Assembly (NCBI RefSeq): GCF_001463765.1
Contig: NZ_BBWK01000019.1
Location: 1-61,888, forward strand
DNA from: Aureimonas sp. AU4
GTDB lineage: Bacteria; Pseudomonadota; Alphaproteobacteria; Rhizobiales; Rhizobiaceae
Direction: 5' to 3'
Length of the DNA stretch: 61,888 nt
The notes under the pieces were generated by a model. That model saw only the letters and a program-made list of their open reading frames with translations. It ran no database searches and had not been told where the DNA came from. Below are positions 1-20,266 of this stretch, piece by piece. Both the position numbers and the translations under genes were made by a program. Position 1 is the first letter of the stretch. Every line of letters begins with the position of its first letter.

Positions 1-1
1 C

Positions 2-2985: not shown

Positions 2986-4304
2986 TTTCCGGGCCGGCCG
3001 CGGCCGTCCTGGCGCTGCGCCCGCGCTGGCTGCGCTGGCCGCGCGCGACCTGGGTCCTGGCGGACCAGGCCGTCCTCAGCCTCGGCACCTTTCTTCTCAG
3101 CGTGGCGCTCGCGCGCAGCCTGTCCCTGGAGACCTTCGGCACCTACGCGCTCTTCGTCAGCGCCCTGCCGCTGGCGCAGACCTTCGGCAACGCGGTGATC
3201 TTCTACCCCCTGTCGGTGCGAGCCACCGTCCTGCCGGAGCCCGAGCGACGCCGCCTGATCCGCGCCACCTTCAAGCTGACGCTCCTCGCCGGCGCGCCGC
3301 TCGCCCTTCTCTTCGGAATCGTGAACCGATGCTTCGTCGATCCGGCGCTCCTCCTGCCTTCGGCCTGCCTTCTCCTGTCGAGCCAGATCCAGGAATGCAC
3401 CCGGCGGGGGCTTCTGTGCGCCTTCCGGCACCGCGCGGCGATCATGGGGGACGCGGTGAGCTATCTCGGCCAGGTGCTCCTGGTCGTGGCGCTCGCGCGC
3501 GTCGCGGCGCTGGATCTGGCCGTCGCCCTCTATGCCGCCGCCGCGACCTCGGTCGTCGGCGCCCTTCTCCAGTCCGTCCAGATCGGCCTCTGGCGGCGGG
3601 ACCCCGGCCCGGTCTGGCCGGTCCGCGCCACCTTGCGCGACTACTGGACGCTCGGTCGCTGGTCGCTCGGATCGAACGCCCTTCTGGCGCTGCGCGGAGG
3701 CGTCCTGCCCTGGCTCCTCGCCTCGTTCCACGGGCCGGTCGCAGCGGGAACCTTCCAGCTCGCCGTCAATGTCGTCAACGTCGCGAACCCGGTGGTGATC
3801 GGCATCGCCAACGTCATCCCGCAGGCGGCGGCGCGCGGCCGGAGCGGGGGCGCGCGCGCCGCGCTACGCCTGTCGCTTCCCTATATCGCGACGGGCCTTC
3901 CCATCGTCGGCCTCCTGTCGCTCGGCATGATCCTAGCGCCCGAGCGGATTCTCGATCTCGTCTACGCCCGCAGCTTCGCCGATCCGGTCCTGTTCGAGGC
4001 CGTGCGCATCATGGCGGTGGGCGCCGTGTTCGGCTTCCTCGCGGCCGGTGCCGGGGCCCATCTCTACGGCTCCGGCGACGGTCGGATCGCCTTTGCGGGC
4101 GATGCCGCGACCGGCCTTGCGGTGCTGGCCGCCGCGGTTCCGCTGGTGGGCGCCCTCGGCCTCCTCGGCGCCTGCGTCGCGGCGGCGCTCAGCCTCGTCG
4201 CCCGCACCGCCTGGATGACCGCCGTCGTCGCCCGCCGTCTCGCGCAGGAGCGCGACCGTCCGGCCCCGTCGTCCCCCACCATCGCGGCGATGGACCGGTT
4301 CTGA
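2982..4304 (+). CDS. Wzx-like lipid-linked oligosaccharide flippase (MOP/PST family)
   Basis: The ATG start overlaps the previous stop (ATGA) and gives 440 residues. The protein has roughly 12 hydrophobic segments. The N-terminal pattern ATWVLADQAVLSLGTFLLSVALARSLS, then FGTYALF, is typical of polysaccharide-transport flippases (a first helix with an Asn/Asp-Gln motif, then an LG..FG.Y segment). The predicted role is flipping undecaprenyl-diphosphate repeat units to the periplasm for the preceding polymerase. The reading frame stays open far upstream through the polymerase gene, but only the part from this ATG looks like protein. It is the last rightward gene before a convergent terminator. 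Confidence 0.8.
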   Translation: MISGPAAAVLALRPRWLRWPRATWVLADQAVLSLGTFLLSVALARSLSLETFGTYALFVSALPLAQTFGNAVIFYPLSVRATVLPEPERRRLIRATFKLTLLAGAPLALLFGIVNRCFVDPALLLPSACLLLSSQIQECTRRGLLCAFRHRAAIMGDAVSYLGQVLLVVALARVAALDLAVALYAAAATSVVGALLQSVQIGLWRRDPGPVWPVRATLRDYWTLGRWSLGSNALLALRGGVLPWLLASFHGPVAAGTFQLAVNVVNVANPVVIGIANVIPQAAARGRSGGARAALRLSLPYIATGLPIVGLLSLGMILAPERILDLVYARSFADPVLFEAVRIMAVGAVFGFLAAGAGAHLYGSGDGRIAFAGDAATGLAVLAAAVPLVGALGLLGACVAAALSLVARTAWMTAVVARRLAQERDRPAPSSPTIAAMDRF

Positions 4305-4340
4305 CGGCGCCTCGCGTTCTGGAACTTGCGGACGCGCGAA

Positions 4341-4364
4341 AGCCCCGCCCGGGAGGGCGGGGCT
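4341..4364. terminator. bidirectional terminator hairpin
   Basis: There is a perfect 10-bp inverted repeat (AGCCCCGCCC / GGGCGGGGCT) with a 4-nt GGGA loop, between the convergent flippase and UDP-glucose dehydrogenase genes. No long T-run follows, as is usual in GC-rich genomes. Confidence 0.7.
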
Positions 4365-4389
4365 CGAGAGGAGGCGGGCCGGGGTCGGC

Positions 4390-5817
4390 CTATTCGGCGG
4401 CCTGCGCCAGCGGCTGGTCCTCGAACCGCTGGAAGGGGCGACGGTCGGCCGGTCCCGTCGACGCGGCCAGTATGGGCCGCGGCGCGGGCGAGGCGAAGCG
4501 GCCGACGCCGCGATACGCGAAGCCGAGCCGCAGGAGACAGCGGGCGTCGAGCATGTTGCGCAGGTCGACCACGACCGGCGTTCGCATCGCAAGGCGCGCC
4601 TCGGCCCAGTCGATCGCGAGAAACTCGGCCCATTCCGTCGCGACCACCGCCGCGTCGGCGCCCACAAGTGCTTCCGTGACGCTTCCCGCGAGCTCGATGG
4701 CGGGGCACTCGCGCCGCGCCTGCGCGCCGGCCACCGGGTCGAAGGCGACGACGCGGGCGCCAGCACGCGTCATCGCGAGCGCCACCGCCAGCGCCGGGGC
4801 CTCGCGCACGTCGTCGGTCCCGGCCTTGAAGGCGAGGCCCAGGAGAGCGACGCGCCGTCCCTCCAGCGAACCGCCGAGCGCCTCGGCGACCTTGCGCGCC
4901 ATGGCGCGCTTGTGCCGCTCGTTGGCCTCGATCACCGCCGCGGCGATCCCCGCGCCGTCCTCGCCGCCCGCCGCAAAGCGCGTGAGGGCCGCCAGGTCCT
5001 TGGGAAAGCAGGATCCGCCGAAGCCCGGTCCCGCCTTCAGGAAGGCCGGGCCGATGCGCCGGTCGGCGCCCACCGCTTCGGCCAGCGCCGAGACGTCCGC
5101 GCCCACGCTCTCGCACAGGCGCGCGAACTCGTTCAAAAGCCCGATCCGCGTGGCCAGGAAGACGTTCGCCGCGTATTTGATCATCTCCGCCGTTTCCAGC
5201 GTGTCGATCTCGATCAGCCGGGTGCCGCGCTCGGTCAGGGGGCGGTAGACCTCGCGCATCGCGGCGGCGGCATCCGCGTCCTCGCACCCCACCACGATGC
5301 GGTCCGGGCGGAGGAAGTCGTCCACCGCGCAGCCCTCGCGCAGGAACTCGGGGTTCGACACGACCGCGAAGCGCCCCTCCTCCAGCCGCGCGCCGACCAT
5401 CGCCTGGAGCCAGCGGCAGGTGCCGACCGGAACCGTGGACTTCACGACGAGCGTCAGCCGTCCTTCGGGAGACTGCGCCGCGCGAAGGCGGACGGCCTCG
5501 TCCACGGCGGCAAAGAAGCCGCGCAGGTCGGCCGAGCCGTCGGGCGCGGACGGCGTGCCGACGGCGACCACCAGCACGAGGTCCCGCGGTCGCAGCGCCG
5601 CGCCGAGGTCGCCGGTGAAGCCGAGGCGTCCCTCATCGAGATTGCGGCGCACCAGGGGCTCGAGGCCCGGCTCGAAGATCGGCGGCTCGCCGCGCCGAAG
5701 CCGTTCGACCTTGGCCGGATCGACGTCGACGCAGACCACCGCGTGGCCGAGTTCGGCCAGGCACGTGCCGGTGACGAGGCCCACATAGCCGGTTCCCAGA
5801 ATGCAGATGTTCGACAT
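4390..5817 (-). CDS. ugd: UDP-glucose 6-dehydrogenase
   Basis: This 475-residue protein oxidises UDP-glucose to UDP-glucuronate with two NAD+. The N-terminal Rossmann motif GTGYVGLVTG is at residues 8-17. Conserved family blocks include STVPVGT (127-133), NPEFLREG (155-162), the KYAAN helix (214-218) and the catalytic-Cys motif GFGGSCFPKDL with Cys270. The C-terminal UDP-binding domain contains GLAFKAGTDDVREAPA. An AGGAAG ribosome site sits about 9 nt before the ATG. UDP-glucuronate is a direct EPS precursor and the substrate of the UDP-xylose synthase-like gene at 13,220. The C-terminus is slightly longer than in the shortest homologues. Function is near certain. Confidence 0.95.
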   Translation of the reverse strand: MSNICILGTGYVGLVTGTCLAELGHAVVCVDVDPAKVERLRRGEPPIFEPGLEPLVRRNLDEGRLGFTGDLGAALRPRDLVLVVAVGTPSAPDGSADLRGFFAAVDEAVRLRAAQSPEGRLTLVVKSTVPVGTCRWLQAMVGARLEEGRFAVVSNPEFLREGCAVDDFLRPDRIVVGCEDADAAAAMREVYRPLTERGTRLIEIDTLETAEMIKYAANVFLATRIGLLNEFARLCESVGADVSALAEAVGADRRIGPAFLKAGPGFGGSCFPKDLAALTRFAAGGEDGAGIAAAVIEANERHKRAMARKVAEALGGSLEGRRVALLGLAFKAGTDDVREAPALAVALAMTRAGARVVAFDPVAGAQARRECPAIELAGSVTEALVGADAAVVATEWAEFLAIDWAEARLAMRTPVVVDLRNMLDARCLLRLGFAYRGVGRFASPAPRPILAASTGPADRRPFQRFEDQPLAQAAE

Positions 5818-5876
5818 GGGAGGGTGCTTCCTGTGCTGAACGGCGATGGAAGGCGCGGTGCGCGCGAGGGCGGCGG

Positions 5877-7310
5877 TCAGCGCGCGCCGCGCGCCAGGAG
5901 GACGGCCGGCAGCGTGTGGACCAGGATGTAGAGGTCGAGCCAGACCGACCAGTTGCGGATGTAGAAGACGTCGAGGCGGCGCTGCGCCTCGAGGTCGGAG
6001 TCGCTGCGGGCGCTGATCTGCCAGTAGCCGGACAGACCCGGCATCACGCTCGCGCGCAGGTCACGAAAGCCCGCCTCGAAGGCTTCGAGGTGGTAGAACG
6101 GAAAGGGGCGCGGCCCCACCAGGCTCATGTCGCCCCGGACGACGTTCAGGAGTTGCGGCAGCTCGTCGATGCTGCTGCGGCGCAGGAGCGACCCGATCAG
6201 CGGCAGGATGCGCGGGTCGGAGCGCAGCTTGAAGGAGCGCGCCCATTGCGCGGCCGCCTCCGGGTTCTCCGCCAGGTGGCGCTCGAGGCGCGCCTCGGCG
6301 TCGCGGTACATGCTGCGCAGCTTGAGGACGCGGATCGTACGCCCCCGGTGGCCCTGGCGCGGCTGGGCGTAGAACGGGTTGCCGGGATCGACCGCCACCA
6401 CCGCGAGCGCCGCGAGAAGCACGAGCGGCGCGGCGAGGCAGAGGAGCGGCAGGGCGAGCGCGAGGTCGAACACGCGCTTCAGCCGGAGGTTGCCGGGCAG
6501 GAGCAGGCCGTGGCGCAGCTCGAAGCCGACGGCACTTCCCACCGCGCGCGGCTGCATCCAGAGCGTCTGGAGCGAGCCGGCGTCACGAAGGACGAGGACG
6601 CTCGGCACCGGCAGGTCGGCCGCGATCCGCCAGTCCCGCTCGCCGTCGCCCGTGGACAGGAGGATCACGCAGGCCACCGGCTCGCCCGCCCGGGCCAGCT
6701 CGGCGAACCCCTCGCCGAGCGCCGCGCCGATCGAGGGCGCGGCGTCCATCGCGACCTGGAGCGCCGGCCGTAGGCCGAGCCGGGGCTCGGCCTCGAGCCT
6801 GGCGGCGAGCGGCCCGACCGCGCCGGCCGGCCCGACCAGCGCCACGGGCTCGCGCCAGAGATCGAGGCGGATCAGCGCCTCCTGCACCAGACCCCGGGCG
6901 AGAAGCCCGAGAACGGTCATGAGCCCGAACACCAGAAGCCACGACGCAAGAAGGGCCGGCGCCGCCAGATGGGCCGCAAGCGCGAAGGCCGCCATGCTCG
7001 ACAGGAGGGCGCAGGCCAGGACATGGTCGCGGAACTGCTCGATCGGCCCGCGCCGACCGACCGCGTAGAAGCCCATCGCCTTGTGAAGCGCGACGAGCAG
7101 CGCGCCCCAGGCCAGCGCCAGCATCAGCCAGTCGCCGGGCGAGCCGGCGCCGGGACCAAGGCCAGTCGACCGCAGGATGGCCGCAAGAAGCGCGATCGCG
7201 AGCGTGGCCGCCGCGACGTCCGCCGCGACCAGCGCGCCGGTGCGGATCGCCCGCCGCGCGCTTGCGCCCGGCCCGGCCCGCTCGGCCGTGAGAAAGCTCG
7301 CATCCGACAT
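5877..7310 (-). CDS. undecaprenyl-phosphate sugar phosphotransferase (WbaP/PssY-type EPS initiator)
   Basis: This 477-residue polyisoprenyl-phosphate hexose-1-phosphate transferase starts EPS repeat-unit synthesis by moving a sugar-1-phosphate from a nucleotide sugar to the carrier lipid. The N-terminal half has about four hydrophobic helices and a CoA-binding-like region (CoA_binding_3 style). The catalytic half begins with KRVFDLALALPLLCLAAPLV and contains KLRSM, SSIDELPQLLNVVRGDMSLVGPRP and the C-terminal PGLSGYWQIS and D.FYI.NWS blocks, all hallmarks of the bacterial sugar transferase family. It lies 59 bp downstream of ugd in the direction opposite to transcription (i.e. it is transcribed before ugd). 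Whether it uses UDP-glucose or UDP-galactose cannot be read from sequence. Confidence 0.92.
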   Translation of the reverse strand: MSDASFLTAERAGPGASARRAIRTGALVAADVAAATLAIALLAAILRSTGLGPGAGSPGDWLMLALAWGALLVALHKAMGFYAVGRRGPIEQFRDHVLACALLSSMAAFALAAHLAAPALLASWLLVFGLMTVLGLLARGLVQEALIRLDLWREPVALVGPAGAVGPLAARLEAEPRLGLRPALQVAMDAAPSIGAALGEGFAELARAGEPVACVILLSTGDGERDWRIAADLPVPSVLVLRDAGSLQTLWMQPRAVGSAVGFELRHGLLLPGNLRLKRVFDLALALPLLCLAAPLVLLAALAVVAVDPGNPFYAQPRQGHRGRTIRVLKLRSMYRDAEARLERHLAENPEAAAQWARSFKLRSDPRILPLIGSLLRRSSIDELPQLLNVVRGDMSLVGPRPFPFYHLEAFEAGFRDLRASVMPGLSGYWQISARSDSDLEAQRRLDVFYIRNWSVWLDLYILVHTLPAVLLARGAR

Positions 7311-7346
7311 GACGAAAAACCCCGCGCCTCGCCGCCAAGGGGACCG

Positions 7347-8375
7347 TCAGCGCGCCGGGGCGGCAGCGGCGGCGGCCTGTGGGCGGAGCGGCCGGGCGGC
7401 GCGCGCGCCGACCTCTTCGTCGATCCACCGGTAGGTCGGCACGATCCCCTCGCGCAGGTGGATGCCGGGCTCCCAGCCGAGCACCTGCCGCAGGAGGCTG
7501 TTGTCGCTGTTGCGCCCGCGCACGCCTTGCGGCTTGGCGAGGTCGTGCCGCTTGACGAGCGTCTTGCCGGCGGCCTCGCAGACGATGTCGACGAGCTCGT
7601 CGATCGTCACGAGCTCGTCCGTTCCGAGGTTCAGCGGCGCGCGGTGGTCGGAGCGCATGAGGCGCACGAGGCCCTCGACGCAATCGTCGATATACATGAA
7701 GGAGCGGGTCTGCTGCCCGTCGCCCCAGATGTCGATCGCGCCGCCCGGCTCGGCCATGGCGACCTTGCGCGAGATCGCGGCCGGCGCCTTCTCGCGCCCG
7801 CCGTCATAGGTGCCGAGCGGGCCGTAGACGTTGTGGAAGCGCACGATGCGCGTTTCCATGCCGAAATCCTCGCGCACGTACTGGCAGAACTTCTCGGCAT
7901 AGAGCTTCTCCAGCCCGTAGCCCTCCTCGGGCTGGGCGGGAAAGGCGTCGTCCTCCTTAAGGGGCCGCACGTCGGCGTCGCGCTGGAGGTGCTGGGGATA
8001 GACGCAGGCGGACGAGGAATAAAGGAAGCGCACGACGCCCGCCCGCCGCGCGGCCTCGACCATGTGGAGGTCCATCAGCGTGTTGTTGAGCGTGATCTCG
8101 GCATGGGACTGGCTGATGTAGCCGATCCCGCCCATGTCGGCGGCGAGATGATAGACCTGGTCCATCCCCTCGACCGCCGCGGCGCAGTTGGCGGGATCGC
8201 GCAGGTCGACCTGCAGGAACTCGTCGGCGGCCGTCGCCTCGTATTCGGGGCGCTTGATGTCGGCGCCGCGCACGTGGTGCCCCTCCGCCTTGAGGCGCGT
8301 GGCGAGATGGTGGCCGATGAAGCCGCCCGCGCCGGTGACGAGGATGCGCAGAGACGTCGATGAGCGTGTCGGCAT
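7347..8375 (-). CDS. GDP-mannose 3,5-epimerase homologue
   Basis: This 342-residue extended SDR begins with the NAD motif TGAGGFIG (14-21). The match to plant GDP-mannose 3,5-epimerase runs along the whole chain: MGGIGYI, LNNTLMDLHMVEAAR, SSACVYP with Cys124, LKEDDAFPAQPEEGYGLEK with Tyr153 and Lys157, GGREKAPAA with Lys196, WGDGQQTRSFMYIDD and GVRGRNSDN (284-292). The plant enzyme uses this Tyr/Lys pair plus a Cys and a Lys for the double epimerisation, and all are present. The product would be GDP-L-galactose (with GDP-L-gulose as intermediate). A GGAAGG ribosome site precedes the ATG. It is transcribed first of the leftward trio with the sugar transferase and ugd. The last ~20 residues (Ala/Arg-rich) are an extension. 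Confidence 0.85.
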   Translation of the reverse strand: MPTRSSTSLRILVTGAGGFIGHHLATRLKAEGHHVRGADIKRPEYEATAADEFLQVDLRDPANCAAAVEGMDQVYHLAADMGGIGYISQSHAEITLNNTLMDLHMVEAARRAGVVRFLYSSSACVYPQHLQRDADVRPLKEDDAFPAQPEEGYGLEKLYAEKFCQYVREDFGMETRIVRFHNVYGPLGTYDGGREKAPAAISRKVAMAEPGGAIDIWGDGQQTRSFMYIDDCVEGLVRLMRSDHRAPLNLGTDELVTIDELVDIVCEAAGKTLVKRHDLAKPQGVRGRNSDNSLLRQVLGWEPGIHLREGIVPTYRWIDEEVGARAARPLRPQAAAAAAPAR

Positions 8376-8530
8376 GGGTCCGGGCCTTCCTTTGTGGGAA
8401 CGGCGTCATCTTGAGAAGCGGCGTCCGGCGAAGTCACCTTTCGCAATCGGAGTACCCTCATTCTCGCTGCCGCGCGGAAAAGGTGTTCCCGATCCGCATC
8501 ACCCCACCCCCTCGCTCGGGAAATTCGCGC

Positions 8531-8544
8531 TTGATCCCGATCAA
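8531..8544. promoter_or_regulatory. distal Crp/Fnr-type box
   Basis: The sequence TTGATCCCGATCAA is a perfect match to the FNR/FixK-type consensus TTGAT-N4-ATCAA. It lies about 220 bp before the beta-helix gene and about 160 bp before the divergent epimerase gene. Confidence 0.65.
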
Positions 8545-8643
8545 ACCTGCGGGGTCCCGCAGGCGACCGCGCGGGCCGGAGCCCGGCGTCGCGGCTTCTG
8601 AAAAGACTGCCGCCACCGCATGTTACGCCGATCAATCATGCAG

Positions 8644-8657
8644 TTGATCTCAATCAA
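8644..8657. promoter_or_regulatory. proximal Crp/Fnr-type box
   Basis: The sequence TTGATCTCAATCAA is a second perfect TTGAT-N4-ATCAA palindrome, at the edge of the AT-rich promoter core of the beta-helix gene and 113 bp from the first box. A further half-site GATCAA lies just upstream at 8630-8635. Confidence 0.7.
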
Positions 8658-8762
8658 AAACATTCCAAAAACGAATTAATCAGTCAATTTTACTTAAATA
8701 GATGCCCATCTTTGCCCGATTTTCGAAAATCTAAGGGGGGTGCCTCAAACGGAGCACTCATT

Positions 8763-10667
8763 TTGGCAGTTACCAAAGCAGACACGTTCGGTCAGACGGA
8801 CCATGCCATGCCTTCAGGCGCGATCGTCCTGACGCCGAATTCCGACGTCCAGTCCATCGTCTCGGGATCGCCCAACGGCTCGACCTTCTGGTTCGAGGCG
8901 GGCACCTACCACCTCGGCAGCCCGATCGTCCCCAAGGACGGCCAGACCTTCATCGGCGCCAAGGGCGCCGTCCTGGACGGCGGCACGGTCCTGAAGGACT
9001 TCACGCAGGAGGGGTCGCATTTCGTGGCCTCGAACCAGACGCAGGAAGGGGAACGTTACGCGACCGACCAGGGCGCTCCCGGCGCCGAGCGCGCCGGATA
9101 CCCCGAGACGGTCTTCGTCGACGGCAAGCCGCTGACCCCGGTCGACAACATGGCGGATCTCAAGTCCGGCCATTTCTTCTTCGACTACGGGGCGGACAAG
9201 ATCTACCTCGCCGACGACCCGAACGGCCACGTCGTCGAGGCCGGCCGCAGCCCGGCCGCGTTCCAGTCCAACGCCAGCAACGTGACGGTCTCGAACTTCG
9301 TCGTCGAGCACTTCAACTCGCCCACGCAGTACGGCGCGATCCGGGGCGACGGGCCGGGCTGGACGGTCGAGAACAACGAGGTGCGCTTCAACTACGGCGT
9401 CGGCATCACGGTGCGCAACGACGGCGTGATCTCGGGCAACAACTCGCACGACAACGGCCAGATGGGCGTCGGCGCGACCGGCACGCACATCACCGTCGAG
9501 CATAACGAGCTCGGCCACAACGGCTACTGGTCCGGCATCAACCCGAACTGGGAAGGCGGCGGCTCGAAGTTCGGGGCGGCGACCGACCTCGTGGTGCGCG
9601 ACAACTACTCCCACGACAACCACGGCTACGGCCTGTGGACCGACGAGAGCAGCAAGAACGTCGACTACGAGGGCAACCTCGTGGTGAACAACGACGGCGG
9701 CGGCATCAGCCACGAAATCTCCTACGACGCCACGATCCGCGACAACACGCTGGTCGGCAACGGGAGCGCGCATGTCGGCGACTGGCTCTGGGGCGCCCAG
9801 ATCCAGGTCCAGAACTCGCAGAACGTCGAGGTCTCGGGGAACCGCGTCGACATGTCGGGCGGCGTGAACGGCATCGCCCTGATCCAGCAGGATCGCGGCG
9901 ACGGCCCGCTCGGGAACCACCTGACGACCGGCAACAACGTCCACGACAACCTCGTCGTCTCGCAGTCGGGCGAGGGCCTGAACGGGGGCGTGGCGGACTA
10001 CCAGGAGAGCACCCTTCTGAACAACAACAGCTTCGCGAACAACACCTACGAGATGTCCGACGGCAGCCACTGGCGCTGGGGCAGCAACATCAACGATTCC
10101 AACTGGGATTCCTTCGTCGCCGCGTCCGGCCAGGAGCACGGCTCGACGCTCGCCGCGCCGACGACCGACACCTCCGCCTGGCTGGGCGCGGCGCCGGCCG
10201 CTTCCGCGCCCGAGGCCACCCCTCCCGTGACCGGCGGCGAGACCCCGCCGCCCGCCGACACCCCGCCGGCCGATCCGGCGCATCCCGTCACCCCGGCGGA
10301 CCCGGCCGCCCCGGTCACCCCGGCGGACCCGAGCGCGCCGGCGACCCCGACGACGCCCGCAACGCCGGCGCCGACCACGCCGGACGCCCCGGCCACCCCG
10401 GCCGACGGCATGGGTGCGGGCCAGCCCGCGACGGGCGGAACCGCCTCCGACACGTTCCACTTCGGAACGCACTGGGGCGCGGACCGGGGAGCGAACCTGT
10501 CGTTCCTGCCCGACCAGCACGACATGTCGTTCCTGTCGCAGGGCCATCTCGCATTCGCCCAGGATGCGTCGGGAGCCGCGTCGGCGGCCACGCCGGCGCC
10601 CCACGAGATGACGATCGAGAACCTGTCCCTGTCGCCGCTGCACTCGGACTTCTTCCTGCTCGGCTGA
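8763..10667 (+). CDS. right-handed beta-helix protein with low-complexity linker and putative type I secretion tail
   Basis: I chose TTG at 8763 because GGAG sits 8 nt upstream; an earlier in-frame TTG at 8712 lacks a good ribosome site. This gives about 634 residues. An N-terminal GAKGAVLDGG-type cap leads into many Asn/Asp/Gly-rich PbH1 turns (VENNEVRFNYGVGI, VISGNNSHDNGQMGV, VRDNYSHDNHGYGLW, VVNNDGGGISH, IRDNTLVGN), the parallel beta-helix seen in polysaccharide lyases, C5-epimerases and hydrolases. About residues 480-560 are a Pro/Ala/Thr/Asp linker. The C-terminal ~75 residues (TFHFGTHWGAD to DFFLLG) are acidic and end in hydrophobic residues; there is no signal peptide. That pattern suggests type I export, as for rhizobial EPS glycanases. 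The exact activity is unknown; action on the EPS is inferred. Confidence 0.75.
   Translation: MAVTKADTFGQTDHAMPSGAIVLTPNSDVQSIVSGSPNGSTFWFEAGTYHLGSPIVPKDGQTFIGAKGAVLDGGTVLKDFTQEGSHFVASNQTQEGERYATDQGAPGAERAGYPETVFVDGKPLTPVDNMADLKSGHFFFDYGADKIYLADDPNGHVVEAGRSPAAFQSNASNVTVSNFVVEHFNSPTQYGAIRGDGPGWTVENNEVRFNYGVGITVRNDGVISGNNSHDNGQMGVGATGTHITVEHNELGHNGYWSGINPNWEGGGSKFGAATDLVVRDNYSHDNHGYGLWTDESSKNVDYEGNLVVNNDGGGISHEISYDATIRDNTLVGNGSAHVGDWLWGAQIQVQNSQNVEVSGNRVDMSGGVNGIALIQQDRGDGPLGNHLTTGNNVHDNLVVSQSGEGLNGGVADYQESTLLNNNSFANNTYEMSDGSHWRWGSNINDSNWDSFVAASGQEHGSTLAAPTTDTSAWLGAAPAASAPEATPPVTGGETPPPADTPPADPAHPVTPADPAAPVTPADPSAPATPTTPATPAPTTPDAPATPADGMGAGQPATGGTASDTFHFGTHWGADRGANLSFLPDQHDMSFLSQGHLAFAQDASGAASAATPAPHEMTIENLSLSPLHSDFFLLG
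10287..10330. repeat. 27-bp tandem repeat in the linker of the beta-helix gene
   Basis: The 17-mer GTCACCCCGGCGGACCC occurs at 10287-10303 and again at 10314-10330, a 27-bp period coding a nine-residue VTPADPAAP-like unit. Degenerate copies extend on both sides within the Pro/Ala linker. The repeat can change length by slippage without a frameshift. Confidence 0.7.
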
Positions 10668-10689
10668 CGTCGGGTCCGTCCCGCTGACG

Positions 10690-10737
10690 GCCCGGTCGGG
10701 GTTCCGCCCTTCTCCAAAGGGCGGGCCTCGACCGGGC
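10690..10737 (+). terminator. terminator-like hairpin after the beta-helix gene
   Basis: This is a long, slightly imperfect hairpin with outer arms GCCCGGTCG / CGACCGGGC and inner arms CCGCCCTT / AAGGGCGG, starting 22 bp after the stop. No T-run follows, so termination is inferred from the structure. Confidence 0.6.
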
Positions 10738-10836
10738 TACCGCCTTGGGGACGTCGCTTGATTGATCCAAGGCAAGGACAAGGGCGGCTCCCGGTCGATC
10801 CTCGGAGCAGGATCCGTGTCCGAGGAGCGACGAGCC

Positions 10837-12096
10837 GTGAACCTTTTCGTACCCTTCGCCCGCCCCTTGCCGCCCCCAGCCCCGCAAGCCGGACGCCCCG
10901 TCGCGCGGGCGGCGCAGGCCCTGGCGCGCTGCCTCTTCGAGGACATCCTGCCGCTCTGGGCGGTGGTCGGCCTCGACCATGCGCAGGGCGGATTCGCCGA
11001 GACCATCGAACCGGACGGCCGGGCCGGGACGGGACCGCGCAGGGTGCGGGTCAGCGCGCGGCAGGTCTATGCCTTCGCGGTCGCCGAGGAACTGGGCTGG
11101 AGCCGCATGGCGGCCCGTGCCTGCGTGCGGCACGGCTACCGGTTCCTGTGCGGCCACACGTCGGCCCACGGCTTCCTGTTCCACTCGCTGGAGAGCAACG
11201 GCTCGCTGCGCGACGGGGGGCACGAGCTCTATGACCAGGCCTTCCTGCTTCTGGCCTATGCCCATGCCCACCGGCTTCTGGGCGGCGGCGAGGCGTGCGC
11301 CCGGGCGCACGAGCTCCTGCGCCAGATCCTGGCCCGTTTCCCGGCCGGCGGCGGGGCGTTCGCGACGCGGCTCGACGCGGGCGGACCGATCCTCGCCAAC
11401 CCGCACATGCACCTTCTCGAGGCGGCCCTCGCCTGGATCGAGATCGACGACGCCCCGCAATGGCACGCCCTGGCGAACCGCATCGTCCACCTCTTCTCGA
11501 CATGCTTCTATGATCGCCGACACGGCGCCGTCCTGGAAGCGTTCGACCTGGCCGGCAAGCCGCTCGCCGAGGGCGGGCGGTACCGCGTCGAGCCGGGCCA
11601 CAACTTCGAGTGGGCCTGGCTCCTGATGCGCTGGGAGCGCCTGGCCGGCGGCGAGGCGGGCGACCTGCCCCATACGCTGATCCGGTTCGCCGAGACGCAC
11701 GGCGTCGACCCCGTCCGGCGCGTCGCCGTGAACGCGGTCTGGCACGACGGCTCGAGCGCCGACGCGCGCGCCCGCCTCTGGCCCCAGACGGAGCGTCTCA
11801 AGGCCTGGCTCGCCCTCGCCGAGGAAAGCCGCGCCGGCGCGGTCGAGGAAGCCGAGCGCAAGGCGGCCGAGGCGGCCGAGACGCTGCTTCTCTATCTCCG
11901 GCCGTCGACGGCGGGCCTTTGGCACGACGTCATGGAGCCCGCCGGCAGCTTCGCAGCCGAGCCCGCGCCCGCGAGTTCCCTCTACCATATCGCCTGCGCG
12001 ATCCGCAAAATCCTCGCCTATGCCGGCAGCGAGGGCGAGGCCGCCCGCCGCCTTCCGGCGCCCCGCCTCGAACGCGAGGCGCAGACGGCGCACTGA
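10837..12096 (+). CDS. AGE-family sugar epimerase/isomerase
   Basis: GTG at 10837 has GAGGAG 9 nt upstream and gives 419 residues, the usual family length; a possible upstream in-frame start at 10762 has no such site. The protein belongs to the N-acylglucosamine 2-epimerase / mannose isomerase (alpha/alpha)6-barrel family. Active-site blocks are visible: GGFAETIEPDG, the RVRVSARQVYAF segment with its RxR, GGHELYDQAFLLLA, NPHMHLLEA and GHNFEWAW (the two catalytic His regions). Members interconvert mannose/fructose, cellobiose/glucosylmannose or GlcNAc/ManNAc. Which sugar is used cannot be told. In this locus it may feed mannose units towards GDP-mannose. A weak TTGAT half-box (10762-10775) lies upstream. 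Confidence 0.85.
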   Translation: MNLFVPFARPLPPPAPQAGRPVARAAQALARCLFEDILPLWAVVGLDHAQGGFAETIEPDGRAGTGPRRVRVSARQVYAFAVAEELGWSRMAARACVRHGYRFLCGHTSAHGFLFHSLESNGSLRDGGHELYDQAFLLLAYAHAHRLLGGGEACARAHELLRQILARFPAGGGAFATRLDAGGPILANPHMHLLEAALAWIEIDDAPQWHALANRIVHLFSTCFYDRRHGAVLEAFDLAGKPLAEGGRYRVEPGHNFEWAWLLMRWERLAGGEAGDLPHTLIRFAETHGVDPVRRVAVNAVWHDGSSADARARLWPQTERLKAWLALAEESRAGAVEEAERKAAEAAETLLLYLRPSTAGLWHDVMEPAGSFAAEPAPASSLYHIACAIRKILAYAGSEGEAARRLPAPRLEREAQTAH

Positions 12097-12119
12097 GCGG
12101 CGCCGCCCGGGCCGTCCCT

Positions 12120-12902
12120 TCAGGCGCTCTCGTGAGGGCCGGCATGCGCGTTGGCCCGCGCCAGGGCGAGAAAGGTTTCCGCGTCGCGCACGACCACCGA
12201 TCCGCGCTGCGTGGCGACGAGACCGAGATCGCGCAGGCCGCGCAGGATGCGGTTCACATGGACATGCGTCAGGCCCGCGGCGTCGGCGAGGTGGCTCTGG
12301 GTCAGCGGCAGCCGGATGGCGCCGCCCGTGCCCTTGTAGGCCACGATGCGCGCCACGAGATCGCCGAGGACCTCGATCACCCGCACCCGGGCGTCGCGCC
12401 GCTCCAGCATGCCCACCCGGTCGCGCAGCCCCGCGCATTCCCGCTCCGCCGCCTCCCACAGGACGACCTGCCCCGCGCCCCCTTGCAGGAACAGGATCTG
12501 CAGGTGGCTGATGAGAATGCGCTCCACCACGACCGGCGTGACCGCCGCCACGACGTGGTCGGCCGGCGCCCTGGGAAACGGGTTGGGATTGCAGATGTCG
12601 CCGGGCAGCAGGAAGCCGAGGATGTGGCGGCTGCCGTCCGAGTTCTCGCGGTGCCGGATCGCCAGCCCGTCGCGGATCGAGATGACGTATTTCGGCTCGG
12701 CGTTCATGGCGATGATCTCGCTGCCCGCCGGAACGTTGGCGACCGTGCCGTGCAGGCTGACCGCCGCCGCCTCGTCCGCGTCGTATCGCTGACGGATCGC
12801 GTCGGCGAGGGTCGGGCGGGCGGGAAGGCGCGGCGCGTGGTTCACCGGTGCCGGCATCAAGGACATCGCCTCCCTGCGCGAAGAGGGACCGAACACGACC
12901 AT
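12120..12902 (-). CDS. Crp/Fnr-family transcriptional regulator (HVNR-type)
   Basis: The longest frame gives 260 residues; ATGs 12 or 15 codons in (near an AGGGAGG) are alternative starts. An N-terminal cyclic-nucleotide-binding-like beta barrel contains [14 protein letters not shown], followed by a dimerisation helix and a winged helix with [30 protein letters not shown]. The recognition helix reads V-H-V-N-R where FNR has V-E-T-I-S-R, so only the Arg of the ESR triad is kept. Only two Cys are present, so it lacks the ligands for an FNR iron-sulfur cluster, and the Crp cAMP-binding cassette is not evident. It is convergent with the AGE gene and close to three TTGAT-type boxes, making it the obvious candidate local regulator. 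The signal it senses is unknown. Confidence 0.88.
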
Positions 12903-13219
12903 GTCCCCGCGGGACCCCTTTCACCCCATGGCCGGTCCATGCCCGGCGGCGCCCGGCGGCAGGTTCGCCCGCGACCGGACTCATCCCTTTCTTCATCTAT
13001 CTTCTTTTTGCTCTCGGGCAATTATCCGTGCTGGGTAGTAAAGCGCCGCGCACGTCAACATCCAATCGGAACCGGCCGGTCGGATGCCCTTTCGATCTGA
13101 GAAGGTTACTGCTTCTGCCACCGCGCATACTTGATCGCCGTCAAGGACCGCAGGCCCCGCTTCCTGCGACCAACCTCCTTGTCGCTCGCCACCGGGGCGG
13201 GTCTTCATGGAGATCAGCG
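12903..13219. promoter_or_regulatory. divergent regulatory region between the Crp/Fnr regulator and the UDP-sugar decarboxylase gene
   Basis: About 317 bp without a convincing gene. It includes a relatively AT-rich stretch around 12985-13060 that probably holds the leftward promoter, and a Crp/Fnr-type box at 13131-13144 facing the rightward gene. A frame open across this region gives a short hydrophobic stretch ([12 protein letters not shown]), but it has no start signal of its own. Confidence 0.5.
13131..13144. promoter_or_regulatory. Crp/Fnr-type box upstream of the UDP-xylose synthase-like gene
   Basis: The sequence TTGATCGCCGTCAA matches TTGAT-N4-ATCAA at 9 of 10 specified bases (ATCAA is GTCAA). 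It lies about 76 bp before the GTG at 13220. Confidence 0.55.
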
Positions 13220-14230
13220 GTGAACGAACCCCTTTCCCCCGCGGCGGCGCGCGAGCGCGCTCCCGGCTCCCTTCCCGTTCTCGTCACCGGCGGCGCGGGG
13301 TTCCTGGGCTCGCATCTGTGCGAGGAGCTGCTGCGGCGCGGCCACTTTGTCCTGTGCCTGGACAACCTCCTGACCGGCAGCCTCGGCAATGTCGAGCATC
13401 TCCTTGGAAACGAGCGGTTCCGCTTCCTGCGGCACGACGTGACCGAGCCGCTCTCGCTCCGCGTGTCGGCGATCTACAACCTGGCCTGCGCGGCCTCGCC
13501 GCCGCAGTACCAGCGCGATCCACTCCACACGATCAAGACGAGCGTCCTGGGCGCGCTGAACCTTCTGGCGCTCGCGCAGGAGAACGACGCCCCGATCTTC
13601 CACGCCTCGACGTCCGAGATCTACGGCGACCCGGCCGTCCACCCCCAGACGGAAGCCTATTGGGGCCACGCCAACAGCTGGGGGCCGCGCGCCTGCTACG
13701 ACGAGGGCAAGCGCTGCGCCGAGACCCTGTTCTACGAGCACATCCGCCAGAACGGCGTCGACGCGCGGCTCGCCCGGATCTTCAACACCTACGGGCCGCG
13801 CATGAGCCCCGCCGACGGGCGGGTCGTCTCGAACTTCGTCGTCCAGGCGCTCACCAACGCCGACATCACCCTTTACGGCGACGGCTCGCAGACCCGCTCC
13901 TTCTGCTTCGTCTCCGATCTCGTGGAGGGCTTCCTGCGCCTCATGGCGCTGGACCGGGCGCCGGCCGGTCCGGTCAATCTCGGCAACCCGATGGAGATCA
14001 CGGTCGGAGAGCTCGCCGAGCGCGTCGTCGCCATGACGGGATCGCGCGCGCGCATCGTCTACCGTCCCCTGCCGCAGGACGACCCCCGTCAGCGCTGCCC
14101 CGACATCACGCAGGCCGGCTCGCTTCTGGGCTGGCGGCCGACGGTCACGCTGGATGAGGGCCTTGCCCTGACGATCCGGCATTTCGACGCGCGTCTGTCG
14201 GCGCCGGACCTCCTCATGGCGGCCGAGTAA
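13220..14230 (+). CDS. UDP-glucuronate decarboxylase (UDP-xylose synthase) family protein
   Basis: GTG at 13220 with GGAG 7 nt upstream gives 336 residues. It is an extended SDR with GGAGFLG (24-30), then the UXS hallmarks [41 protein letters not shown] (catalytic Tyr160 and Lys164), [43 protein letters not shown] and [12 protein letters not shown]. The family converts UDP-glucuronate to UDP-xylose with NAD+ recycled internally. The substrate is the product of the ugd gene at 4,390, so both steps are encoded in the same locus. In the TSE/YDEGK region it looks fully active. A related UDP-sugar dehydratase activity is possible but less likely. Confidence 0.88.
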
Positions 14231-14240
14231 GGACGGTCCA

Positions 14241-14262
14241 GCCGGAGCGGCCTCGCTCCGGC
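14241..14262. terminator. bidirectional terminator hairpin
   Basis: There is a perfect 9-bp inverted repeat (GCCGGAGCG / CGCTCCGGC) with a GCCT loop, followed by TTCCCC, between the convergent UDP-sugar decarboxylase and FAD oxidoreductase genes. Confidence 0.7.
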
Positions 14263-14270
14263 TTCCCCGG

Positions 14271-15428
14271 TCAGGCGAGGCCGTCCCGCGCCGCCTGGGG
14301 TTCGAGCGCGCGGCGCAGCCAGCCCCGGCCGGCCCGCTTGCCGAAGCGCAGCCAGCGCTGCGCCGCCCAGTCGGCCCGCGTCTGCGTGGCCAAGGCCCGC
14401 ATCCGCAATCCCCGGCGCCAGGCCAGCCGGTCGCAGGCCGCCTTGGCGGGGTCGGCATAGAAGCGGTCGACGCGCGCGGCCGGGATCGCCCCCTCGGCCA
14501 GCCAGCGGGGCGCATGAACCTCGCAGAGCCGCTCGACGTCGGTCATCACCTTCATCGTGCCGAGCCCGGTCGCGGGACAGGCCGGACGGAAGGCGTCGCC
14601 GATCGCGACGACGCCCGGCACGCGCGGGCGGCACTCGTCCTCGAGGTCGGTGGAGCGGACGCGCACCGGCGAAACGATCTCGACGTCGCCCGTGAGGTTG
14701 CGCAGGTGCGGAAACACGCGGGCGAGCGTCTCGGCGGGCTGCGCCCGGAAGGCGGCGATCAGGGGGTCGCGCATGTCGTGGTAGACGAAGAGGTTCGCCC
14801 GCATGACGCTTCCGAGGCGGAACAGCGACAGGTATCCGACCCCCACGGAGTGGCGCTCGGGGTTGTTCTGGAGGGCCGGGAACAGGAAGCCGCCGGGCTC
14901 GCGCGACGCCATGTCGAAGCCGATCGTGATGGAATGCCCCCGGTGGCTCACCCGCCGGCGGGCGCCGAGCGCGGTCCGCAGCGGCTGGCTGAGGCCCGTC
15001 GCGAGCACCGTGAGGCGCGCGTCGAGGCTCGAGCCGTCCGAAAGACGAAGGCTCTGCCCACGATCATCCGCCGCGATGTCGACGACACGCGCCGCCCTGC
15101 GCGCAACCGACGGCGGCAGGGCGGCGCGATAGGCCGTGACGAGCCCCTCGTAGCGGAACGAGCACTGGCGGAAGGGCATGACGTCGAGAAGCCGGCCGAA
15201 CCGCGCGACCCACAGGTGGTCGAGCTGCGTCGCGGTGGCAAGGAGTGGGCCGGCAAGACCCAGGCGGGCGAGCCGGTCGAGATGCCCGGGCTCCATCTTC
15301 TCGCACCGGAAGTCGGCGGGAACGTCGTCGTTCGGGTCGATCAGCACGACCTCGTAGCCGCGCCGCGCCAGGAGCGAGGCCGACAGGCATCCGGCCAGGC
15401 CACCGCCCACGAGCGCCACGTCGAACAT
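14271..15428 (-). CDS. FAD-dependent oxidoreductase (UbiH/halogenase-like group)
   Basis: Start ATG at 15428 (MFDVALVGGG) is preceded by GGGGAA; an in-frame codon 11 residues earlier is a weaker choice. The 385-residue protein has the FAD dinucleotide motif VGGGLAGCLSASLLARRGYEVVLIDP (residues 7-32), a mid-chain TVLATGLS, and the second FAD motif GVVAIGDAFRPACPATGLGTMK (GD..RP.CP..G.G). This places it with p-hydroxybenzoate-hydroxylase-like monooxygenases and reductases, close to tryptophan-halogenase/geranylgeranyl-reductase-like forms. The substrate is not evident. It sits at the end of the EPS locus, convergent to the UDP-xylose synthase gene, but nothing in the sequence ties it to sugar chemistry. 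Confidence 0.75.
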   Translation of the reverse strand: MFDVALVGGGLAGCLSASLLARRGYEVVLIDPNDDVPADFRCEKMEPGHLDRLARLGLAGPLLATATQLDHLWVARFGRLLDVMPFRQCSFRYEGLVTAYRAALPPSVARRAARVVDIAADDRGQSLRLSDGSSLDARLTVLATGLSQPLRTALGARRRVSHRGHSITIGFDMASREPGGFLFPALQNNPERHSVGVGYLSLFRLGSVMRANLFVYHDMRDPLIAAFRAQPAETLARVFPHLRNLTGDVEIVSPVRVRSTDLEDECRPRVPGVVAIGDAFRPACPATGLGTMKVMTDVERLCEVHAPRWLAEGAIPAARVDRFYADPAKAACDRLAWRRGLRMRALATQTRADWAAQRWLRFGKRAGRGWLRRALEPQAARDGLA

Positions 15429-15497
15429 GTTCGTTTCTTCCCCCATCGGACCCCGCGGCATCCTGCGTCAGGGGACGCGCCTTGGCAGCACCGATCG

Positions 15498-15509
15498 GGG
15501 AGTACTCCC
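15498..15509. other. perfect 12-bp palindrome in an intergenic region
   Basis: GGGAGTACTCCC lies between the divergent FAD oxidoreductase and diguanylate cyclase genes, 70 bp from the first start. It may be an operator; only a single copy is seen. Confidence 0.3.
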
Positions 15510-15650
15510 GAGGAGCATGAGCGGCTCGGCCTTGCGCCGGATTGCGATCCCGCCAAGGGAGCTTCCGACTGACCGCATCGAAGCATCGATTCGAACGCTT
15601 TCTTCAGCCGCCTGGCGCATCATCGAAACGGTGCGTTGGAGCCGGGGCCC

Positions 15651-17030
15651 ATGGAAGGATCGCAGACCGGATACGGACGGCTTGTCGCGCGGGTCACCAT
15701 GCCCGCCGCCGTTCTCGTCGGGCTGTCGCTCCTGTGCCTTCTGGTTCTTCTGTGGCTCGTCGCGGGATACCAGACCTCGGTCGCCCAGCAGGAACAGGCC
15801 CGTCTCGCCGAGAGCGCCCTCGCCGTCCGGGGCGAGGAGATGGAGAAGGTCGCCACCGACTACGGGGCCTGGGACGAGGCCGTCGAAAAGCTGGTCGACC
15901 ATCCGGACCGGGCGTGGAGCGACGAGAACATCGGCGCGTCGACACAGGCGACCTACGGCCTCGACATGACCTTCGTGGTGCGGCCCGACGGGACGGCGAG
16001 CTACGCCGTGGTGCGGGGCGAGCCCTTCGATCGGCCGGTCTCCGACATCCTGGCGGGCGGCTTCGACACGCTTCTCGCCCACCAGCGCACGCGCGGGTCG
16101 GAGGGCGCGACCGCCGGGCTCGTTCTGGCGCAGGGCCAGCCGGCGATCGCGGTGATCGTTCCGATCCGCCCCCAACTCGCCGACGCGACCGACGCGACGC
16201 CGAGGCACCAGCTGGTCTTCGTGGACGTGGTCGATCCGACGATGATCGCGAGCGTCGCCCATGTCTACCGCTTGCCCGGCCTCCATCTCGCGCCGGCACC
16301 GCAGGGCGAGGCGTCCGTGCCGCTCGTGAGCGCCGACGGACGGCTCGTGGCGGCGCTCGCCTGGGACGGCGCGCGCCCCGGCGACCGTCTGCTCGAACTC
16401 GCCGTGCCCGGATGGGCCGCGGTGGCCCTCGCCTTCGGCGCCCTGACCGCGCTTTTCGTCCGCCAGACGCGCTCGGCCGCACGCGCCGTCGCCGAAAGCG
16501 AGCGCCGGGCCTCGCACGATGCGCTGACCGGCCTGCCGAACCGCGTCCTCCTGTTCGAGCGCCTCGACCGGGCGTCCCGGCGTCTCGCCGCAGGCGGCGA
16601 GGGCTTCGCGGTCGGCTATCTCGACCTCGACGGGTTCAAGGCGGTGAACGACAGCCGGGGCCACGAGGCGGGCGACGAGGTCCTGCGCGAGGTCGCCCGG
16701 CGCCTCGAGGCGAGCCTCGGCGCGCGCGACTTCGCGGCGCGGCTGGGCGGCGACGAGTTCGCCGTGATCCTGCCGGGCCTCTCGCACCCGCGCGAGGCGC
16801 TCGCCGTCGGTCGACGGATCATCGCGGCGATCGAGCAGCCCATCATGGTCGGCGACGGCGAGCGGGCCTGCATCAGCGCGACGGTCGGGGTGACCTTCGC
16901 GCCGGCCGACGGCGCCGACCCCCTCACGCTGCTGCGCAATGCCGACCAGGCGCTCTATCTCGGCAAGCGCCAGGCAAAGGGCGAGGTCCGCTTCCACGCC
17001 GAACCGGTCGCCGGACGGCTCACCGCCTGA
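15651..17030 (+). CDS. membrane diguanylate cyclase with CHASE4 sensor and GGDEF domain
   Basis: ATG at 15651, with GGAG nine bases upstream, gives 459 residues. A membrane helix (about 17-40) is followed by a periplasmic CHASE4 domain with the typical EKVATDYGAWDEAVEKLVDHP and NIGA segments, a second helix near residues 247-267, and a GGDEF domain starting at SHDALTGLPNR. The catalytic GGDEF is intact at 366-370 (RLGGDEFAVIL), and the upstream GYLDLDGFKAVND metal-binding loop is present. The allosteric I-site RxxD is degenerate (GARD), so feedback inhibition by c-di-GMP may be absent. It makes c-di-GMP in response to an external cue. EPS production is a common c-di-GMP target, and the gene flanks the EPS locus. 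Confidence 0.92.
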   Translation: MEGSQTGYGRLVARVTMPAAVLVGLSLLCLLVLLWLVAGYQTSVAQQEQARLAESALAVRGEEMEKVATDYGAWDEAVEKLVDHPDRAWSDENIGASTQATYGLDMTFVVRPDGTASYAVVRGEPFDRPVSDILAGGFDTLLAHQRTRGSEGATAGLVLAQGQPAIAVIVPIRPQLADATDATPRHQLVFVDVVDPTMIASVAHVYRLPGLHLAPAPQGEASVPLVSADGRLVAALAWDGARPGDRLLELAVPGWAAVALAFGALTALFVRQTRSAARAVAESERRASHDALTGLPNRVLLFERLDRASRRLAAGGEGFAVGYLDLDGFKAVNDSRGHEAGDEVLREVARRLEASLGARDFAARLGGDEFAVILPGLSHPREALAVGRRIIAAIEQPIMVGDGERACISATVGVTFAPADGADPLTLLRNADQALYLGKRQAKGEVRFHAEPVAGRLTA

Positions 17031-17112
17031 GGGAATCGAGCGGCCCGCCCCCTTGAAGCGCGGCGAAAGCCTCGCATAGTCGTCACGATCGCCCGTGCCC
17101 CGGAGACCCGTC

Positions 17113-17526
17113 GTGACCGTCACGATCTACCACAATCCCGCCTGCGGAACCTCGCGCAACACGCTGGAGATGATCCGCCGCTCCGGCGAGGACCCGCAGG
17201 TGATCGAATATCTGAAGACGCCGCCAAGCCGGGAGGTGCTGGCCGAGCTTCTCGACATGATGGGCCTGCGGCCGCGCGACATCCTGCGGGAGAAGGGCAC
17301 GCCCTATGCCGAGCTCGGGCTCGGCGACCCGAAGCTGTCGGACGAGGAACTCCTGGCGGCGATGGCGGCGCACCCGATCCTGATCGAGCGGCCGATCGTG
17401 GTGACCGGCAAGGGCGCCGCGCTCTGCCGGCCGTCCGAGAAGGTGCTGGACCTCCTCGACCGGCCGGTCGAAACCTTCACCAAGGAGAACGGCGAGGTGG
17501 TGGGGGCGACAGCCTCGGGCGCGTGA
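17113..17526 (+). CDS. arsC: arsenate reductase, glutaredoxin-type ArsC
   Basis: GTG at 17113 with GGAG at 17102 gives 137 residues, typical for ArsC. The catalytic Cys lies in YHNPACGTSRNTL. The three Arg regions that bind arsenate in the plasmid R773 enzyme are matched by ILREKGTPYAEL, IERPIVV and ALCRPSEKVLDLL. It reduces arsenate to arsenite with glutathione/glutaredoxin. There is no arsenite pump or ArsR nearby, so it stands alone, as often seen in alphaproteobacteria. The upstream diguanylate cyclase ends 82 bp before it. Confidence 0.92.
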   Translation: MTVTIYHNPACGTSRNTLEMIRRSGEDPQVIEYLKTPPSREVLAELLDMMGLRPRDILREKGTPYAELGLGDPKLSDEELLAAMAAHPILIERPIVVTGKGAALCRPSEKVLDLLDRPVETFTKENGEVVGATASGA

Positions 17527-17693
17527 GACGGCGGACGGACGCAGCCGCCGCTCCGGATCTTCGCCCGGCGCCCGATCCTGCGGCGAAATCAGGGAGCTAG
17601 GACTTTCGCGCCAGGTCGAATTCCGCCAAGACGTCTTTCGCAAACCCAAGCAGGCGCGGCCGTCGCGGGCGTTTCGCCGGATACCTTCTTCCC

Positions 17694-19721: not shown

Positions 19722-19837
19722 CTCCTTGGCGCCGACGGCCCGGGAACGGCGCAAGACACGCGTCAGCCAGACCGTTGCCGGGGCGCGAGCGGGCGATAGA
19801 TGCACGCATCTCGGACGAACGATGGATCGGGGGTGCC

Positions 19838-20266
19838 TTGTTCTGGACGGATCATCAGCTCTCGCAGCTGCGCTCGGTTCTGGTCGCGCAGGGGCTGCGC
19901 TCGGTGCTCGGGGCCAGCGGAACGGACGAGGCCATCGATCTTCTGGGCCAATCGCTGGAAGCCCGCTGGCCGGGCGGCGGCCACGACCTCGACCTGGCGC
20001 TCTGCACGACGCGCTGCGCCCGGGTCGTGCGGCGCGACGGCACCGCCGAGATGGCGTCCTGCCTGTCGCGCTTCGGCATTCCCTTCGGCCTCGCCGCCGC
20101 GCTGATGAAGGGCTGGTACGTCAGCCTCGACCATGACGGGCTCGGCCTGCGCCTCGCCCCGCTGGAGCCGGGTGCCTCGATGCGCCGCTGGCGCGCCGTC
20201 GCCACGCGCCAGCCGCCCGCGGCGGCGAACTCGCAGCCCTTCGCCCTGACGTCCCGCACCGGCTGA
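19838..20266 (+). CDS. hypothetical protein, 142 aa, unrecognised
   Basis: I do not recognise this protein. The frame runs to TGA at 20266 and has the codon pattern of a real gene (GC-rich third positions). The start is uncertain: TTG at 19838 has GGGGG 4 nt upstream, and TTG at 19775 is an alternative. The visible sequence starts LFWTDHQLSQLRSVLVAQGL and has a Cys-containing mid-part, FGIPFGLAAALMKGWYVSLDH, and a Pro/Ala-rich tail. It lies between the HWE kinase and a frameshifted methyltransferase gene. The antisense frame is also open but looks less protein-like. Confidence 0.5.
   Translation: MFWTDHQLSQLRSVLVAQGLRSVLGASGTDEAIDLLGQSLEARWPGGGHDLDLALCTTRCARVVRRDGTAEMASCLSRFGIPFGLAAALMKGWYVSLDHDGLGLRLAPLEPGASMRRWRAVATRQPPAAANSQPFALTSRTG

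Follow-up and report, generated by a model that had tools for sequence, protein, structure and literature searches.

Local boxes and a local regulator

Which regulator reads the FNR-like palindromes lying among the EPS genes of Aureimonas sp. AU4: the Crp/Fnr-family protein encoded between them, or a more distant protein of the FNR type? The window analyzed here is the whole contig NZ_BBWK01000019.1 (61,888 nucleotides, contig C19; the letters G, C and L denote our genomes, contigs and loci), and the features that matter are the following.

7347..8375, minus strand, GDP-mannose 3,5-epimerase-like (Pfam Epimerase; PDB 2c59, E 3e-107)
8531-8544, box 1, TTGATCCCGATCAA, perfect FNR-type dyad, 155 bp before the epimerase frame
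8644-8657, box 2, TTGATCTCAATCAA, perfect FNR-type dyad within an AT-rich stretch
8763..10667, plus strand, right-handed beta-helix protein (Pfam Beta_helix, E 1.8e-16)
10762..12096, plus strand, AGE-family protein (N-acylglucosamine 2-epimerase; Pfam GlcNAc_2-epim, E 4e-58), true start possibly downstream
12120-12902, minus strand, Crp/Fnr-family regulator of 260 aa with two Cys and a THVHVNR helix, without the FNR cysteine motif
13131-13144, box 3, TTGATCGCCGTCAA, 9/10 match, a TTGAY-N4-RTCAA variant
13220..14230, plus strand, UXS-like, i.e., UDP-glucuronate decarboxylase (Pfam; PDB 2b69, E 1.3e-107)

All three boxes were found where the initial annotation had placed them, two as perfect TTGAT-N4-ATCAA and the third at 9/10, and the names it had given to the GDP-mannose epimerase and the UDP-xylose synthase-like gene agree with the closest PDB entries, a GDP-mannose 3,5-epimerase (E 3e-107) and a UDP-glucuronate decarboxylase/UXS (E 1e-107). 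The beta-helix protein presumably modifies the polymer. Box 2 lies 105 bp before the beta-helix gene if this begins at TTG 8763 and 54 bp before it if it begins at TTG 8712, both distances depending on a start codon that is our own choice. Box 3 is 75 bp from the UXS start (GTG 13220) and 228 bp from the ATG of the regulator and, as it stands between two divergent genes, can serve either. A further perfect 14-bp palindrome, GATTTTCGAAAATC, is present at 8718-8731, just before the beta-helix gene.

The perfect motif occurs twice in the window and in none of 100 dinucleotide shuffles, the relaxed motif TTGAYNNNNRTCAA (TTGAY-N4-RTCAA) three times and likewise in none of 100, and with two mismatches allowed there are 16 matches against a shuffle mean of 3.3. 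Each of the three boxes fits TTGAY-N4-RTCAA, the dyad that defines an FNR/FnrN site; no clear -10 element was seen at class I/II distance (-41.5 or -61.5) for the window sites, and sites in the fnr island described below were no better. We consider the window boxes to be non-random and best read as predicted FNR sites.

The EPS cluster probably continues on a second contig

A Wzc-type protein of a relative, G043, matches two contigs, the right end of C18 (L047 13218-13658) with residues 17-180 and the left end of C19 (window 1-1636) with residues 188-717, and the two contig ends have 13 bases in common. Given this split gene and the common bases, C18 and C19 are in all probability neighbors, and the EPS cluster very probably continues from the left end of the window onto C18. 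The C18 part comprises an export gene (Poly_export, SLBB), a LuxR-type regulator and a second beta-helix gene (C18:35124-36653; L047 10124-11653) whose product is 39-41% identical to that of the window; G043 also has two. A fourth, perfect box lies at C18:32571, 117 bp before the LuxR-type frame. The cluster as a whole therefore holds 4 of the 18 boxes of the genome within some 22 kb (Poisson P of about 2e-6, for a span chosen afterwards): one before the LuxR-type gene, two between the epimerase and beta-helix genes, and one between the Crp-type and UXS genes.

Boxes across the genome and an FNR-type protein

Scanning all 4,492,370 bases of the genome, as the initial annotation had suggested, we found the placement of the boxes not to be random, with clusters around fnr and also in the EPS cluster. 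There are five perfect TTGAT-N4-ATCAA sites and 18 TTGAY-N4-RTCAA sites, against 0 and 1 for the reversed pattern that served as control, the excess being smaller when one mismatch is allowed (57 versus 9). The 18 sites are distributed as follows.

C2:133-153 kb, around fnr, 7 sites
C6:76-78 kb, 4 sites
window, 3 sites
C2:202 kb, C16, C18 and C83, 1 site each

Chance as the origin of the boxes was considered and rejected on the basis of the window shuffles together with these genome controls.

All seven boxes of the C2 island (7 of the genome's 18) lie at most 11 kb from a Crp/Fnr gene, C2:143517-144254, among genes for Usp, Hsp20, BON and Nramp proteins and an alcohol dehydrogenase, and a MgtC/DUF4010 gene stands immediately before fnr. 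The region of the C6 boxes holds SPW, CBS, SDR and PhaC genes, and the genes at both places partly resemble published FNR/FixK targets. The 14-mer of box 3 is found twice on C6 (C6:77629 and C6:77680; L053 3630 and 3681), in opposite orientation and ca. 50 bp apart, beside the SDR, CBS and PhaC genes.

Eight proteins of the genome exceed the Pfam cut-off for HTH_Crp_2 (10 further matches fall below it), and of these eight none but the C2 protein has an E-x-x-S-R recognition helix (E-T-V-S-R). The TTGAT half-site would be contacted by the Glu and Ser residues of that helix. The protein also carries C-x2-C-x7-C CQGCEVRRSGIC plus one further Cys, i.e., the N-terminal set and central Cys of the Fe-S proteins FNR/FnrN. 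Its best NCBIfam model is FnrL, at 180 bits and below the 300-bit cut-off, which designates it as an FNR-type protein and not as the Rhodobacter equivalog. Judged by these motifs, we predict C2:143517-144254 to be a bona fide FNR/FnrN gene (FnrN/FnrL type). The initial annotation had offered two options, of which the second, that a distant FixK/FnrL protein uses the boxes, gains support from this protein with its C-x2-C-x7-C and E-T-V-S-R motifs and from the seven boxes within 11 kb of its gene.

Box number follows FNR-type proteins across genomes roughly and not strictly. Among 21 genomes of the genus, an FNR at least 55% identical to the C2 protein is encoded only in G000 (the window genome) and G012, which have 18 and 19 boxes, and the other 19 genomes have 2-9, except for G005 with 16 (control 9). 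As many as 12 of the 19 boxes of G012 lie at most 30 kb from its fnr. One G012 box precedes an SPW gene, and the next small gene resembles, by eye, the one after SPW on C6. When each of the 21 genomes is classed by its best match to the FNR query only, the 14 with E-x-x-S-R have 3-19 boxes and the seven with an N-R helix 2-9 (one-sided Mann-Whitney P 0.021; P 0.065 without G000, G012 and G005); two of the 14 (G008 and G010) do not have the Fe-S motif. Outside the genus, G121 (FNR 51% identity) and G043 have 8 boxes each, and G265, G152, G211 and G192 have 12-19. In G043, TTGATTTCGATCAA occurs at L190 1501 (G043:C8:320389), just before a gene that resembles cydA (cytochrome bd oxidase) by eye; cydA is a typical FNR target.

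The local regulator belongs to another branch

The description of the local regulator in the initial annotation proved accurate in its coordinates, its two Cys and its V-H-V-N-R helix (in full, T-H-V-H-V-N-R). Both of its domains exceed their Pfam cut-offs (cNMP_binding, 28.4 bits against 27.5; HTH_Crp_2, 48.8 bits against 27), which makes it a member of the Crp/Fnr superfamily. The E-x-x-S-R helix that marks FNR/FixK proteins is absent from it, and with the Glu and Ser of FNR missing from the helix and no FNR cysteine motif, the earlier statement that it is not a classical FNR holds. In a tree of 66 rows (the identical L118 and L119 both kept, 30 loci of the order-sample search left out), a single group of 23 (99/89) unites the E-x-x-S-R proteins. 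The local regulator is not among them; it joins regulators of G152, G211, G121 and G192, all with a TH-x-H-x-NR helix, in a group of five (100/99). Owing to its long end branch (the program warns of long branches), its position beyond this group is unsure.

These four are also its nearest relatives in a sample of 199 family genomes queried with the local regulator (39-43% identity), and when the G152 protein was queried against 397 genomes of the order, the local regulator was the best match (E 3e-41; next 1e-32). The helix of the kin reads TH-I-H-F-NR, and in three genera the nearest kin stand before an algD-like gene. In G152 and G211, they are flanked by an AGE-family gene and the algD-like gene; in G121, the algD-like gene comes after the regulator, and an AGE match was not found there. 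The G152 locus, where a GT2 synthase, a PilZ protein and a large protein with a beta-helix are encoded nearby, looks like an alginate cluster, a name that we infer. The three regulator-algD spacers share a dyad followed by MGAA (TTGATGGGGATTAA, TTGATGCAGATTAA and TTAATTGACGTTAA), i.e., a conserved TTRAT-N4-RTTAA-MGAA before the algD-like genes (L113 9514, L114 8836 and L115 about 8818), with 11 of 18 columns invariant among the three, a value equalled in 2 of 200 mononucleotide shuffles. In G152 and G121 this dyad is 9/10 like the FNR consensus. It may be the branch's own site, a promoter element, or an FNR/Dnr-like site such as the TTGAC-N4-GTTAA described in Dinoroseobacter. No such dyad with an MGAA flank is found in window positions 1-20000, where the best candidate has three mismatches.

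Could the local regulator nonetheless be the cluster's own regulator and bind the TTGAT boxes via changed contacts, the first option of the initial annotation? Its gene sits between the boxes, with box 3 in its upstream spacer, and its TH-I-H-F-NR kin precede algD-like genes with a spacer dyad that, in two genomes, comes within one base of an FNR site. We consider this unlikely, however, as the Glu and Ser of FNR are missing from the helix, the protein belongs to a different branch of the tree, and its kin go with a different dyad, one that is absent from the first 20,000 positions of the window. Moreover, the 7 of 21 genus genomes whose best match has the N-R helix have few boxes, and those far from the local regulator (on C2 and C6) outnumber those near it. 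This option is thus left unsupported, and the protein is probably a second regulator with another DNA code, whose own gene FNR may control through box 3.

A variant would combine oxygen with a second signal: FNR would occupy the TTGAT boxes, and the local regulator would bind sites that overlap these or lie close by. Two regulator genes of the cluster (LuxR type and Crp type) carry boxes in their upstream spacers, and control of other regulator genes by FnrL/FnrN is on record for Dinoroseobacter, Rhizobiales and sinR; even so, the algD-type dyad search of window positions 1-20000 revealed no site for the local regulator, and we regard joint action as very unlikely. It is a speculative and rather improbable thought that the TH-x-H-x-NR branch specifically serves polysaccharide clusters, alginate-like ones in three genera and the EPS cluster here, and that its half-site is shifted to TTRAY, in which A is tolerated at the position where the lost Glu of FNR would require G. 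The local protein and FNR would then share the sites at the EPS promoters or compete for them, with oxygen and a second signal as inputs.

Conservation of the boxes

The beta-helix protein of the window has at most a short C-terminal match in the 20 other genomes of the genus (in 3 of them). Given that the genus offers no full match, two more distant relatives, G043 and G265, drawn from 394 family genomes of which five matched, were compared. The divergent epimerase/beta-helix pair is present in both, the spacers being homologous by gene content, and the beta-helix protein of G043 matches at 62% over the first 412 aa. The parts of the EPS clusters that were compared (39 kb of G043 and 21.8 kb of G265; 0/2) contain no TTGAY-N4-RTCAA, G265 having a 9/10 match 15 bp before the epimerase frame, and none was found in two MAG loci with 37-40% identical beta-helix relatives. 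As far as seen, the EPS boxes appear to be lineage-specific. Such lack of conservation in two relatives with a homologous gene pair speaks for chance palindromes without function; however, the empty shuffles, the genome controls and the clustering of the boxes make this explanation extremely improbable.

A predicted link between low oxygen and the EPS genes

We consider it probable (roughly 75%) that the three window boxes and the box at C18:32571 are predicted binding sites of the genome's own FNR, through which low oxygen would affect the EPS genes. When oxygen is low, an FNR dimer whose Fe-S cluster is intact would occupy the four boxes and alter how the LuxR-type regulator gene, the epimerase/beta-helix pair and the UXS/Crp pair are transcribed, and the THVHVNR protein would be a second regulator, maybe under FNR itself. 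We infer binding by FNR, oxygen as the signal and an effect in the sense of activation or repression from DNA and protein motifs. This reading is backed by the rarity of the boxes, by the way they cluster near fnr and within the EPS cluster, and by the motifs of FNR, both its cysteines and its helix. Against it count the missing boxes in G043 and G265, the want of a clear -10 element, the FnrL score under the cut-off, the few boxes of G121, and a genus trend that loses significance without the top three genomes. Of the redox or oxygen link to EPS that the initial annotation had envisaged, oxygen remains the best reading, with FNR and not the local regulator as the mediator.

If true, an EPS cluster with two transcription factor genes joins the oxygen regulon of this bacterium, and a homologous cluster in which one lineage seems to have acquired FNR sites would make a clean case. 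The comparison also brings out a Crp/Fnr branch that goes with alginate-like and EPS clusters.

Comparison with known systems

The loci of the regulator's kin beside algD-like genes (G152, G121/G192 and G211) share with the window the TH-x-H-x-NR helix, within one supported group of five, and in G152 and G211 an AGE-family gene adjoins the regulator as it does here. They differ in that the proteins are 39-43% identical, the loci are alginate-like rather than this EPS cluster, and a different dyad stands at algD.

With the FnrL/FnrN/FixK regulons, as far as the published tables and texts present them, this genome shares the TTGAY/RTCAA consensus variants and an FNR with Fe-S cysteines (PMC2908626, PMC4999443). 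The ChIP table of Rhodobacter sphaeroides FnrL lists the same variants, one of them identical to C2:138815, and Y/R variants like box 3 occur in it (PMC2908626). Targets that recur among the box-flanking genes are Usp, alcohol dehydrogenase and PHB polymerase as well as Crp-Fnr genes. The alphaproteobacterial FNR regulon includes Usp, and in the same table a zinc alcohol dehydrogenase comes just before the FNR block (PMC2908626); for Rhizobiales, PHB polymerase has been proposed as a FnrN/FixK target, and Crp-Fnr genes under FnrN/FixK are reported (PMC4999443). Neither main text uses the words "polysaccharide" and "exopolysaccharide" (PMC2908626, PMC4999443), and the passages covered, mostly from literature outside the subscription journals, contained no statement on FNR sites in an EPS sugar-nucleotide cluster.

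RedB of Rhodobacter capsulatus, compared by its published description, resembles the local regulator in belonging to an uncharacterised Crp/Fnr subgroup and in a regulon that overlaps that of FnrL (PMC9603854, PMC9603517), but its published motif is a 12-bp, non-palindromic, AT-rich one (PMC9603854). In Agrobacterium, according to a review, FnrN acts on sinR via a canonical FNR site and hence on biofilm maturation (PMC4018554), a close precedent that makes the general idea less surprising. The likeness, drawn from the described roles, lies in a canonical FNR site upstream of a second Crp/Fnr-family gene and a surface phenotype at low oxygen, whereas the target there is sinR and biofilm maturation and here an EPS sugar-nucleotide cluster (PMC4018554).
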